A stretch of DNA of 25,854 nucleotides from a virus. Within the stretch, counting starts at the first letter, position 1, and each line of letters starts with the position of its first letter. The stretch lies in the IMG/VR virus record IMGVR_UViG_3300025701_000046, positions 1 through 25,854 of that record, one strand, 5' to 3'. A program made the translations under genes and the position numbers. This document shows positions 2,376 to 24,505 of this stretch, in pieces. Below the pieces are notes generated by a model. That model saw nothing but the letters and a program-made list of their open reading frames with translations, had not been told where the DNA came from and did not search any database.

Positions 2376-2807
2376 ATGAAACTCGATCAATTACGCAAAA
2401 TCATACGAGAAGAAGTAAGAGCTGCCGTTAAGGAGGAGTTACAAGAAGTAATGAATGAAGCTGTTAAAATTGCTTCAGCTCCACAAGGCATGCAAAAATT
2501 CGCTGACTATAAGCCAGTCGTACAAAAAGACCTTAAAAGAACATGGTCTACAGGAAAAATGAATACAGGTACTGTACCTTTAGATGAGATGCTAAAAATG
2601 ACTAAGGCATCTATGACAGGAGAAGAGTACTCTAACATAATGGGAGGGTCTGGTGCACAGAAACCTAACTTTGCTAGCTCTATGGCTAATCAAATGGGAA
2701 TGACAGCATCACCTAATCAACCCGGAATAGATATAAGCAAATTAGACTTTGTAGCTAAAGCTAAATCAGTATTAGACAAGTCATACGAAAAAGATAGAAG
2801 TAGGTAA
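2376..2807 (+). CDS. Small helical virion-associated protein with charged N-terminal helix
   Basis: This 143-residue protein opens with a strongly amphipathic helix (MKLDQLRKIIREEV, continuing to about residue 35). The middle and C-terminal parts are Met/Ser/Gly-rich, low-complexity and probably partly disordered, ending in a Lys/Asp-rich tail. I recognise no enzymatic motif. The first twelve residues (Met-Lys-Leu, then IIRE) fit the shape of a T4-type capsid-targeting leader, which is cleaved after an (I/L)-x-E triplet, but a simple coiled-coil start explains them equally well. It sits two bases before gp25 in the baseplate block, so a structural or assembly role is the simplest reading. Confidence 0.6.
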   Translation: MKLDQLRKIIREEVRAAVKEELQEVMNEAVKIASAPQGMQKFADYKPVVQKDLKRTWSTGKMNTGTVPLDEMLKMTKASMTGEEYSNIMGGSGAQKPNFASSMANQMGMTASPNQPGIDISKLDFVAKAKSVLDKSYEKDRSR

Positions 2808-18138: not shown

Positions 18139-18589
18139 GCTTATAACAGAAATATCAGATATGCCAGAAGGCACTTACGGTTTTATTTATGAAACATTGT
18201 ATAAGCCATCCGGCTTGAAGTATATAGGAAAAAAAGTACTATATTTCGAGCGTAACAAAAGATTAGGAAAAAAAGCCCTTGAAGCTCTTAGATTAGAGCG
18301 TAAGGCAAAAGGTATAGGAGGAAGAACTCCTCTTAAGCAAAAAGTGGTAACAGAATCAGACTGGAGAGAATATTATGGTTCACACAAGGATATATTAAAA
18401 TTAGTAAAAGAATCAGAAGACCTAAGAGGGGACTTCGAAAAAAAAATATTAGCTTTTGTACCGAATAAGAAGCTATTAACGTATTTCGAGTGTAAGTACC
18501 TATTTATAAATGAAGTACTAGAGAATCGGGATAACTATATTAACGACAATGTACTTGGAAAATTTTATAGAAAAGATTTCGACTTATGA
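18098..18589 (+). CDS. GIY-YIG endonuclease, SegE-like
   Basis: This 163-residue protein carries a GIY-YIG nuclease core: YGFIYETLYKPSGLKYIGKK (27-46), with a basic helix (Arg52/Arg55) after it. A Ser-Asp-Trp-x-x-Tyr-Tyr-Gly-Ser block (87-95) and a YFECKYLF segment with the probable metal-binding Glu131 follow, then an Asn-rich end (NDNVLGKFY). The Trp-Thr-Phe-Gln-Gly segment (9-13) just before the core is common in SegE-like phage proteins, which supports the start at 18098 (or 18104) over the Met at 18161. Related proteins are homing endonucleases or freestanding phage nucleases. It overlaps the upstream gene by 41 bases and the downstream by 4 (ATGA), tighter than expected for a recently inserted mobile gene. 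Confidence 0.72.
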   Translation: MTMPTLPTWTFQGRLITEISDMPEGTYGFIYETLYKPSGLKYIGKKVLYFERNKRLGKKALEALRLERKAKGIGGRTPLKQKVVTESDWREYYGSHKDILKLVKESEDLRGDFEKKILAFVPNKKLLTYFECKYLFINEVLENRDNYINDNVLGKFYRKDFDL

Positions 18590-20536: not shown

Positions 20537-21248
20537 AAGAGTATTTAACTGGAGAGACATAAGCCCTGATTGTATGGAACTTGAAGGTGCATTAGCGTGG
20601 ATACATAAACCTATAGAAGATAACAAATACCTTTTAGTAAGCTGGAGAATGTCCGGCTCAGAATTCTGTAGAGAAGCTATACTCGAAAACTTCGAAAGTA
20701 TACAAACCGGACCCTACTGGAGTAAGTCTCATTCAATATTAGATAAAAAGATAACTAAGACTCTAAAGAAAGCAGGAACTAAAGTAGTAGTAGTTGTAAC
20801 AGATCCTAGAGAGGTAGCAATGAATATTCTACACTTCGATAACGGCAACCATCACTACCCCTTTGACTACCCAACACTAGATCATGGCAACCCTAACTTA
20901 AGAGAGCTACTAGATCTCACTGTAGAGAAAGAAGCAGAACTAATTAACTTTTATAGAAAAGAATTCAAAGAGAACTGCTTAATAGTCAGATATGAAGATG
21001 CTCTCTTCTACCCAGAGTACTTTCAAGATAGAGTTGCAGACTTTATTAATGAAGAACCTTTAAGAATAGATGGAGTAGAAAAGTATAAAAAGTCTATGTA
21101 TAAGAACTGTGGGTATTTTCATAGATTTTTTCCTTTAGATGATATTAAAGGTAACTATCATACCTATCGAGAATTTTATGATGAGTGGTATTATCCACTC
21201 TATGGACTAACCGGATTAAAGTATGCATGGTGTATAAACGGAACGTAA
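20520..21248 (+). CDS. Sulfotransferase-like protein (first copy)
   Basis: This 242-residue protein follows the P-loop sulfotransferase plan: LLVSWRMSGSEFCREAILEN (38-57) is a 5'-phosphosulfate-binding loop variant, VVVVVTDPREVAMNILHF (89-106) is the 3'-phosphate segment with the D-P-R-E-V-A motif, and LIVRYEDALFYPEYFQ (154-169) contains the YED triad common in this family. The usual Lys of the loop is replaced by Met (Arg-Met-Ser-Gly), so cofactor binding may be altered. A catalytic His candidate is not obvious; an HFDNGNHHYPFDYP stretch is His-rich. The enzyme would transfer sulfate from PAPS to a glycan hydroxyl. The next gene is a second sulfotransferase; the two overlap by 22 bases. Confidence 0.62.
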   Translation: MLKKNKRVFNWRDISPDCMELEGALAWIHKPIEDNKYLLVSWRMSGSEFCREAILENFESIQTGPYWSKSHSILDKKITKTLKKAGTKVVVVVTDPREVAMNILHFDNGNHHYPFDYPTLDHGNPNLRELLDLTVEKEAELINFYRKEFKENCLIVRYEDALFYPEYFQDRVADFINEEPLRIDGVEKYKKSMYKNCGYFHRFFPLDDIKGNYHTYREFYDEWYYPLYGLTGLKYAWCINGT

Positions 21249-22741
21249 TTATAGTAGCAGCAAGAAGAAGCGGTACTCACTTACTAGCAGATCTCATAGT
21301 AAATAACTTTGGGTACGAGAGTATTGATGAAAACTATCTAGACTTTACTAAGTTTGAACACCCGGGTTTAAATGGTTTTCAAGAGTTAATAGACGAAGGA
21401 AACAAAGTAACTTCTACTCACTCACACAACTATAGAGACCACTATAAACGTAACCATACTATTGACTTAGGTATTGACGAAAAAATAGATAAGATATTTT
21501 CTGAATCTAAAATCATATTAATCTTTAGAGATATTAGAGATATAATTAACTCTTGTTATCATAGACCTCATATCAAACAAAACTACAATTCTTTCTCAGA
21601 CTTTTACGAGAATTTTGATAATACAGGATATGAAACTCCTGGTATTGATTATGATAATCTAGGAGATATATTAATAGATTTTTACAAGAACTGGTTTTCA
21701 GTTTATATGAGTAGAGAGCTTCTCAATCTTGATATGGAAATTATTTCATTTGAGGATATAATTAATGACTATGAATCATCAGTAGATAAAGTAGGTAAGT
21801 TTCTAGAGCTACCAGTTCAAAAGCAGATAGATATAAGACTACCAAATAAAAATACTGACGGTATTAAGTATACTACTAATGACTTTAGATCTGGTAAAGT
21901 AGGTAGTTGGTCTTCGACTATGGATGCTAAACTCGGTGAACAGTTAGCTGATAAATATAACATTCATATAGGTAGCAGTGTGAAATGTTATTTAGAAGAT
22001 ATTAAAATAAATGAATTCCATATACCTGAGCGAAATAAATTTCAACTAGGAACTACAGATTGGACAGAAGAGATTAAGAAAGTAAATGCTGAATTAAGCG
22101 AGTACAGTTTTACTTCTATTATAGACTCTAAACATCTTATAGAAAATAGATACGCAGATTCAAAACTTACAACACTTCAAACTAATGGAGATTTTAGATA
22201 CTTTCATAAAGTATTTTACTATCAAGATTACGTACTAAAGTTTATTTACCCCTGCAAAGCTGTCTTAGATAAAATAACATTTAATACTACAGTACCAGTA
22301 GCATCTTTAAAACAGAAACTAGTCATTTTAAAAACAAATGATATCCTGTACAATCTCGGTATAATACCTAAACTATATGATGTCGGGATTTATAACGGAG
22401 TATTATATGTAGTTCAAGAGAGATATGAAGGGTATCAAGTTCTTTGTGCTAAGTACAATCTATACCCTGATTGGGACGATTGGGAATGGCCTGTAAGAAT
22501 TAATGTTTTTTCTCAAATGTTAAAACATTTTGAAGCAGCCCTTGAACATAATATCGTTTTAACTGATATTGTAAACGTATACAACTGTGCAATAGATGAT
22601 GAAGGTAATTTAAAATACTTCGATTTAGATGGAATTAAAGTATACAACACACGAAAAGAAATGCTAGCATCAGAAGATTATAAAAATGCTGTTGGTATAA
22701 TTCAAAAAGTTTCTTATATTTATAACAAAGTTAATAATTAA
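21227..22741 (+). CDS. Sulfotransferase fused to kinase-like domain
   Basis: I take the ATG at 21227 (MVYKRNVIIVAARRSGTHLL) as start; the longer frame from 21185 adds 14 residues that read through the previous gene. The 504-residue product has two parts. Residues 1-255 are a sulfotransferase: RRSGTHLLADLI (5'-PSB loop), IILIFRDIRDIINS (96-109, 3'-phosphate), IISFEDII and RSGKVGSWSS (221-230, the family's GKVGxW loop). Residues about 325-504 look like a protein-kinase fold: YVLKF with Lys338, VQERYEG (397-402) as hinge, HNIVLTDIVNVYN (His441, Asp447) as catalytic loop and YFDLDGI (Asp466/Asp468) as DFG-like. The catalytic Asn spacing is not canonical (Asn453 at +6), so it may be a distant or pseudo kinase. 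The kinase domain resembles sugar and LPS kinases in topology only. Confidence 0.6.
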   Translation: MVYKRNVIIVAARRSGTHLLADLIVNNFGYESIDENYLDFTKFEHPGLNGFQELIDEGNKVTSTHSHNYRDHYKRNHTIDLGIDEKIDKIFSESKIILIFRDIRDIINSCYHRPHIKQNYNSFSDFYENFDNTGYETPGIDYDNLGDILIDFYKNWFSVYMSRELLNLDMEIISFEDIINDYESSVDKVGKFLELPVQKQIDIRLPNKNTDGIKYTTNDFRSGKVGSWSSTMDAKLGEQLADKYNIHIGSSVKCYLEDIKINEFHIPERNKFQLGTTDWTEEIKKVNAELSEYSFTSIIDSKHLIENRYADSKLTTLQTNGDFRYFHKVFYYQDYVLKFIYPCKAVLDKITFNTTVPVASLKQKLVILKTNDILYNLGIIPKLYDVGIYNGVLYVVQERYEGYQVLCAKYNLYPDWDDWEWPVRINVFSQMLKHFEAALEHNIVLTDIVNVYNCAIDDEGNLKYFDLDGIKVYNTRKEMLASEDYKNAVGIIQKVSYIYNKVNN

Positions 22742-23768: not shown

Positions 23769-24071
23769 ATGAAACTAAGCACTTTAATATTAGAATATAA
23801 ACCAGGATTTGAAGTTCACCGTATCAATATAACATATACTGATTTTGGAAGGTACTACGGAACATATCTCTATGAGAAACCAACAGAAGGTGGATTAAAT
23901 AACTGGAAAGACAAAATTAGATCCTATGATGAAGCTGCTGAGTATATCAAAAACCTAACAGGAATGGAGCTACCAAGAGATTATGCTCCTACTACTTTAG
24001 ATAAAATTACTGACGCAATTAAAGCTAAAGGGATCGATGCAGATCACGATGACGCAATGGACGTAAGTTAA
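23769..24071 (+). CDS. Small protein with capsid-targeting-like N-terminus
   Basis: This 100-residue protein of unknown function starts MKLSTLILE (1-9), the same length and kind of sequence as the T4 internal-protein leader (MKTYQEFIAE), which ends in an (I/L)-x-E site cut by the prohead protease. Residues 18-37 are beta-rich (VHRINITYTDFGRYYGTYLY), 45-67 helical, and the C-terminus (AIKAKGIDADHDDAMDVS) is acidic. I recall this DDAMDVS-type ending in other marine phage proteins. A TATTTATA motif lies upstream. Five bases after its stop comes the mini kinase, which begins with a similar leader, so the two may be packaged together. Confidence 0.55.
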   Translation: MKLSTLILEYKPGFEVHRINITYTDFGRYYGTYLYEKPTEGGLNNWKDKIRSYDEAAEYIKNLTGMELPRDYAPTTLDKITDAIKAKGIDADHDDAMDVS

Positions 24072-24076
24072 CATGT

Positions 24077-24505
24077 ATGAGACTATCAAACGTAATACTT
24101 GGCGAAATTCTATACTACGACCCAGGATTTGAAAGGGAAATAGATAAGATACAAGACTTAGGAGGTAAGCATTTAGGTTCCGGAGATTACGGTTCAGCTT
24201 ATTTACTTAACGGCAGAGTATATAAAGTTACTACAGACGAAATTGAATTAGAACATGCCCACGTACTTAAGGGTAAAAAAACAAATCATTTTGCTCATAT
24301 CTACGATGTAGAGGAAATTAATCCTAAACTCGGTATTATACAAATGGAAGTACTAGGAGAGTTTAAAGGAGAAATTCCTGAAGAATGGGTAGATGCAGTT
24401 AAAAAAGATGCTAAACGTTACGGTATAGACCCTGATGAATTAGACATCAGACCTTCCAACATTATGGTGAATCAAAAGAATCACCTTAAATTAGTTGATA
24501 TTTAG
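24077..24505 (+). CDS. Mini protein-kinase-like protein (142 residues)
   Basis: This short protein has the key elements of a kinase fold in order: glycine-rich loop LGSGDYGSAYLL (33-44), VYKVT with Lys50, an acidic helix (EIELEH, 55-60), hinge IIQMEVLG (87-94), catalytic loop LDIRPSNIMV (122-131) with Asp123 and Asn128 at canonical D-x4-N spacing, and LKLVDI (137-142), where Asp141 is in the position of the DFG Asp. The protein ends right there, so activation segment and C-lobe are missing, far below the usual 250 residues. The N-terminus (MRLSNVILGE) is leader-like and could be cleaved after LGE. Active-site residues look intact; real activity would need a very reduced fold. A bound partner might complete it. 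Confidence 0.6.
   Translation: MRLSNVILGEILYYDPGFEREIDKIQDLGGKHLGSGDYGSAYLLNGRVYKVTTDEIELEHAHVLKGKKTNHFAHIYDVEEINPKLGIIQMEVLGEFKGEIPEEWVDAVKKDAKRYGIDPDELDIRPSNIMVNQKNHLKLVDI

Follow-up and report, generated by a model that had tools for sequence, protein, structure and literature searches.

Two adjacent genes in a marine T4-like phage with candidate capsid-targeting leaders, one of them on a minimal protein-kinase-like protein

The proteins that a phage injects encounter bacterial defences before any others, yet outside bacteriophage T4 and a few giant phages hardly any are known. The T4 protein gp24 is a documented substrate of the gp21 protease. In T4, ten leader residues suffice for entry into the prohead core, and foreign fusion proteins have been packed and delivered; residues 4 and 7 of the leader matter in targeting, residues 8 and 10 in cutting, and leaders of the T4 type are about 10–19 residues long (PMC9026906). 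The core proteins gp22, gp67 and gp68 are likewise cleaved by gp21, and the internal proteins of T4 have been described as basic (PMC9026906). T4 internal proteins inhibit GmrSD, i.e., type IV restriction enzymes (PMC12373910), and among T-even phages internal proteins combine a conserved targeting sequence with diverse cargo (PMC3012670).

We analyzed a 25.9-kb stretch of viral DNA (25,854 nucleotides, hereafter the window), which is a fragment of a marine, T4-like contractile phage. Its genes run from baseplate wedge and tail-fibre proteins, labelled by inspection of the ORFs and by the gene order annotated in phage immuto, to a glycosyltransferase and a sulfotransferase, then to two small genes for proteins of 100 and 142 aa and finally to a DnaG-type primase. 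Neither head genes nor a gp21-type (S77) protease gene were found within the 25.9-kb fragment. A megablast search of the window against cultured phages gave no match; the closest cultured relative is Flavobacterium phage vB_FspM_immuto (immuto), with 43% identity for the kinase and 67% for the major capsid protein (MCP). The 142-aa protein is encoded at 60 loci of relatives with identities of 62–100%.

An earlier note on this DNA had drawn attention to two adjacent genes with leader-like starts, and we found both ORFs and their N-termini exactly as described there. ORF 23769–24071 encodes 100 aa and starts with MKLSTLILE (MKLSTLILEYKPGFEVH...). It is followed, after a gap of 5 bases, by ORF 24077–24505, which encodes 142 aa and starts with MRLSNVILGE (MRLSNVILGEILYYDPGFERE...). 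Searches of Pfam and PHROGs with the 100-aa and the 142-aa protein returned no family above threshold. The features of the two genes are as follows.

23769..23795, + strand: leader of protein 1 (100 aa), MKLSTLILE, predicted prohead-protease cut after Glu9; MKLS..ILE is invariant in 6 relatives and residues 1–10 have low pLDDT.
23796..24071, + strand: protein 1 cargo, 91 aa, 10.5 kDa, pI 4.9; small alpha/beta domain.
24077..24106, + strand: mini-kinase leader, MRLSNVILGE, predicted cut after Glu10; motif in 59 relatives, residues 1–11 with pLDDT <50.
24107..24505, + strand: mini protein-kinase-like cargo, 132 aa after the predicted cleavage, 15.1 kDa, pI 5.2; from AlphaFold2, Foldseek and VIA.
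24173..24193, + strand: glycine-rich loop LGSGDYG, residues 33–39; Gly34, Gly36 and Gly39 are invariant.
24224..24226, + strand: Lys50, candidate ATP-binding (VAIK) lysine, invariant in 24 sequences.
24443..24460, + strand: catalytic-loop-like DIRPSN (Asp123, Asn128); Asp123 is invariant in 23 lineage sequences and replaced in immuto, Asn128 is invariant in all.
24497..24502, + strand: Asp141-Ile142, DFG-motif position just before the stop; Asp141 is invariant.

With 9 and 10 residues and an (I/L)-x-E end, both window leaders fit the form of T4-type propeptides (about 10–19 residues). In MRLSNVILGE, Leu8-Gly9-Glu10 stand in exact T4 register, and MKLSTLILE is one residue shorter. The earlier note had likened the two leaders to MKTYQEFIAE of the T4 internal proteins, with cleavage after (I/L)-x-E. 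A T4-type start is indeed present, but the nearest T4 N-termini (NC_000866) are those of gp24 (MAKINELLRE), gp22 (MLKEQLIAE) and Alt (MELITELFDE), not MKTYQEFIAE of IPII and IPIII.

The kinase leader is highly conserved. Kinase relatives have the same start methionine in 59/59 cases and read M[RK]LS[NHR]V[IL]LGE. In diverged relatives the exact residues shift and the (I/L)xE end is kept, i.e., MKLSKIILEG, MKLSQIILEG and MKLYRIISEI, with MISIYNILKE in immuto. Conserved leader residues are encoded by several synonymous codons (five for Leu3, four each for Leu8 and Gly9), and we therefore conclude that it is the peptide that is selected. In the AlphaFold2 model of the kinase the leader, residues 1–11, is disordered. 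Judged from sequence comparison and this model, the leader behaves as a removable, interchangeable, disordered tag that is separate from the folded domain.

We scanned three near-complete relatives (G001–G003, 168–177 kb) with a broad leader pattern, M(x)[KR][LIVF]xx[ILVF][ILVF]x(0-2)E. It matched 8, 8 and 6 proteins, compared with about 0.3 for shuffled N-termini and none of about 2,740 internal Met positions. Because the patterns were devised post hoc, with the data already seen, the controls are safer evidence than the exact ratios. Among 249 bacterial ORFs the broad pattern was found in 2 and a strict pattern in none; of 147 ORFs in about 99 kb of T4 sequence, the broad pattern matched only gp24. 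In the three relatives, 6/8, 7/8 and 6/6 of the leader genes are found at most 30 kb from the MCP gene, an enrichment compared with other genes (P 0.004 to 0.0006). Further leaders of the M-(K/R)-L-S type, for which the earlier note had proposed a search, were found as well: other proteins in the relatives carry M-[KR]-L-[ST] starts. After removal of the first 12 residues, the tagged proteins formed 18 BLAST clusters, and profile comparison of these cargo clusters gave one plausible relation in 153 pairs (core181–core201, at 62%). A tagged 227-aa protein (L067:15858) was considered as an Alt-like ADP-ribosyltransferase and dropped, since Pfam gave no support.

These results also bear on whether MKLSxxILxE could be a general N-terminal habit unrelated to the head, i.e., a start context, a membrane or other targeting signal or a shared ancestral helix. 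Window ORFs with similar starts and no clean motif, MKLDQLRKIIREEV at 2376 and MIKIQELVG at 18586, would suit such a reading. We consider it very improbable, given that synonymous codons vary, that the cargos are unrelated, that the pattern is rare in bacterial ORFs and confined to gp24 in the scanned T4 stretches, and that the leader genes lie near gp23. Moreover, another lineage marks the same cargo with a different tag that again ends in xE (see below), and the leaders, with 4–5 hydrophobic residues each, fall short of the length of a signal peptide or a membrane anchor. The ORF at window 2376–2807 encodes a tail-region protein (start MKLDQLRKIIREEVRAAVKEEL) with a leader-like opening followed by a long charged helix, and it is conserved in relatives.

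Evidence on the protease and on the MCP derives from relatives. The gp21-like protease on which the proposed cleavage depends is present there, i.e., six of the seven large relatives have a Peptidase_S77 (gp21-type) gene (E about 1e-35 to 1e-37). The gene immediately after the protease carries a leader, MKLASIILE, MIKLANIILE or MKLSELILE. The MCP of the relatives is Gp23 (E 9e-82) and has a conserved LENQAKQIVAE or QIVSE at the site that corresponds to the cut in T4 gp23, query residue 61 being aligned with mature residue 10. The cleavage motif assumed in the earlier note thus appears to have its counterpart in the major head protein, as a matching [IV]xE at the aligned gp23 site. The scaffold-like protein of the relatives starts with MANKDLFKQAIAEAK, comparable to MLKEQLIAEAQ of T4 gp22.

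The tagged post-protease protein of G001–G003 (e.g., L068:11111-11650) has two long hydrophobic stretches and is encoded between the protease and scaffold genes; in immuto a similar protein sits beside the kinase instead. It is possibly a membrane-acting head cargo. Three further immuto proteins, gp092, gp077 and gp076 (L095:13806-14354, 27631-28632 and 28632-28931), have a common start, NFDLKKFLVENKLT, which is perhaps a second type of tag.

The leader was also found on probable core or head proteins, e.g., on an MHKLEKLILE protein of 517–822 aa near the terminase, hence the tag need not signify an injected effector. Tagged proteins might then be structural or assembly proteins associated with the core or the scaffold: the leader would bring them into the prohead core, but they would serve in morphogenesis or be degraded, and would not reach the host. 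The tags on the MHKLEKLILE protein and on the gene right after the protease agree with this, as do the gp21-cleaved core proteins gp22, gp67 and gp68 of T4 (PMC9026906). We nevertheless regard it as unlikely, because the cargos include enzyme folds (protein kinase, Zeta-like kinase, superoxide dismutase) and because the slot before the kinase swaps families freely, unlike assembly proteins.

In this slot, directly upstream of the kinase, four unrelated families alternate; the window type has 100 aa, the others about 115, 123 and 143 aa. Nearly every complete version has a start of the form MK[LI]xxI[IL]xE. The kinase genes of L015 and L016, for example, are 93.2% identical and are preceded by proteins that are unrelated to each other, both of them tagged. 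The idea that the slot proteins are a single diverged family was rejected by hhalign profile comparison. The family of protein 1 has 6 members in relatives and is also found in the C-terminal half of immuto gp094; a comparison of its predicted structure with the PDB gave no match below E 0.001. Counter-defence is a natural guess for these variable proteins, because type IV restriction enzymes are inhibited by the internal proteins of T4.

The earlier note had called the 142-aa protein a mini kinase. This was supported for the fold, i.e., the AlphaFold2 model (mean pLDDT 86.8) matched protein kinases in Foldseek (E about 1e-5, probability 1.00) and in VIA-align (Z up to 10.0, residues 16–142). 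The predicted fold comprises the N-lobe and the catalytic loop, and the stop follows Ile142, one residue past the DFG Asp. On the other hand, a full C-lobe and the activation segment are absent, and we therefore file the protein as kinase-like and not as a canonical protein kinase. Its PF00069 score of 13.9 bits lies below the curated cut-off of 31.7.

Leaders that load the head would be compatible with a pseudokinase or a nucleotide-binding adaptor as the 142-aa cargo, and we give this reading slightly less than an even chance. The missing activation segment and C-lobe remainder point to it, as does the loss of the catalytic Asp (Asp123) in the immuto homologue, but all 23 lineage sequences retain the Gly-loop, Lys50, Glu57, Asp123, Asn128 and Asp141. 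An active injected kinase is still a hypothesis, because the chain stops at the DFG Asp and the immuto version has no catalytic Asp. Such a kinase might modify a host protein early in infection, as Alt does by ADP-ribosylation. A second kinase-like domain is encoded near the mini-kinase: the N-terminal part of a 518-aa ORF (window 21185–22741) is a sulfotransferase domain (PF00685, E 5e-14), while its C-terminal part matches a FAM69-like kinase (PIP49_C, E 9e-4).

Other tagged cargos were found in the relatives. A Zeta-toxin-like P-loop kinase (PF06414, E 1e-10), encoded near the mini-kinase, has the leader on 79 of 80 homologues, and the exception is cut by the contig end. Its predicted cut site lies a few residues ahead of the first strand, and a search against cultured phages gave no match. 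Tagged Cys-rich proteins form a family of 138 aa (L041:39-455; L360:5659-6393). In Actinomycetia phage DSL-LC01 a homologue bears the annotation 'high potential iron-sulfur protein' and is encoded directly before genes annotated as capsid maturation protease. A PDB profile search with the 138-aa family found no match, the iron-sulfur name is therefore unconfirmed.

In one relative, L037:1743-2366 encodes a 207-aa Fe/Mn superoxide dismutase (SOD) with the start MKLSKLLLEEKE-FELPKLKY, where the leader adds 11–12 residues. Both SOD domains score above the curated cut-off (PF00081, 89.3 bits; PF02777, 117.3 bits), and the Pfam SOD domain begins at residue 12. Of the 80 closest bacterial SODs, 72 begin at the canonical Met and lack the leader stretch. 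Other viral SODs mostly have short N-terminal extensions, many of which end in hydrophobic-x-E (NVLLE, DLILE, FLTE). SOD-bearing contigs outside the window lineage contained gp21 or gp23 in 2 of 12 cases, which speaks against head loading, though weakly, as the contigs are fragments.

In contig L109, which belongs to another phage lineage, five of eight genes have starts of the MRAxDFLxE type, i.e., the SOD and four others. A sixth gene with a looser start, MRELITLIEA, is a homologue of the Cys-rich MKLTDILLKE protein of the window lineage. The tagged genes are neighbours in a run at L109:3266-7531. In the scanned T4 stretches (about 99 kb), the pattern of the L109 lineage matched only ipII and ipIII. 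As read from their N-termini, the same cargo families wear each lineage's own tag.

From sequences and models taken together we consider it probable that both N-termini are T4-type capsid-targeting leaders and that their cargos, including a minimal protein-kinase-like enzyme, are packed and most probably injected. Packaging, cleavage and injection, as well as kinase activity and its target, are what we infer here. The acidity of the two cargos (pI 4.9 and 5.2) counts against this reading, since the internal proteins of T4 have been described as basic. The leader of 9–10 residues would dock the protein into the scaffold core of the prohead. A gp21-type (S77) protease would then cleave behind (I/L/V)-x-E, at Glu9 and Glu10 in the two window proteins, and the folded cargo would be freed inside the head, packed with the genome and most probably enter the host along with the DNA. 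The 142-aa cargo would be a minimal protein-kinase-like enzyme made of an N-lobe and a catalytic loop. The 100-aa cargo would belong to a set of small, mutually unrelated proteins that take turns in a variable slot, much like the internal proteins of T4. The Zeta-toxin-like P-loop kinase, the Cys-rich protein and, in one relative, the Fe/Mn superoxide dismutase would be loaded by way of the same tag.

Whether T4-like phages share a delivery code, in which a lineage-specific N-terminal tag and the prohead protease pre-load working enzymes, among them the minimal protein kinase, the Zeta-type kinase, SOD and the Cys-rich proteins, for the earliest infection, we regard as an evenly balanced question. 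If they do, the tag, readable from sequence, would list the injected proteins of a phage. A search of the open-access literature for packaged phage kinases, packaged phage SODs and the use of such leaders by marine T4-like phages gave no direct precedent, and within the literature searched a packed protein kinase or SOD would be an early effector of a new kind. With T4 as control, a short sequence rule points out proteins that are probably loaded into the head in a marine lineage that is abundant and uncultured.

Compared with known systems, the locus resembles the T4 internal proteins in its build, with a short (I/L)xE leader on unrelated small proteins, variable genes behind it and a gp21-type protease in the genome. 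It differs in that the leader is MKLSxIILE and not MKTYQEFIAE, that the cargos are acidic and include enzyme folds, and that packaging is predicted. T4 Alt likewise is a head-borne enzyme whose leader looks similar (MELITELFDE); Alt, however, is an ADP-ribosyltransferase, whereas the cargo here has a kinase fold of unrelated sequence. The end motif of the leader is shared by the N-termini of T4 gp22 (MLKEQLIAE), gp24 (MAKINELLRE) and gp68 (MLLIPETHELVLE), which are shell or scaffold proteins, in contrast to the cargo enzymes proposed here. In SPN3US and phiKZ, ejection proteins are head proteins that a gp21-related protease cuts after x-x-E and that are ejected (PMC10052503), but in SPN3US the motif is A-x-E and propeptides are mostly long (111–254 residues), with two of 20 and 24 residues (PMC10052503). 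Polyvalent phage proteins are also effector enzymes predicted to be packed in the head and delivered at infection (Iyer et al. 2017, PMC5512222). They are large, multidomain proteins recognised by their domain content, in contrast to the small single-domain proteins described here, which have a common N-terminal tag.
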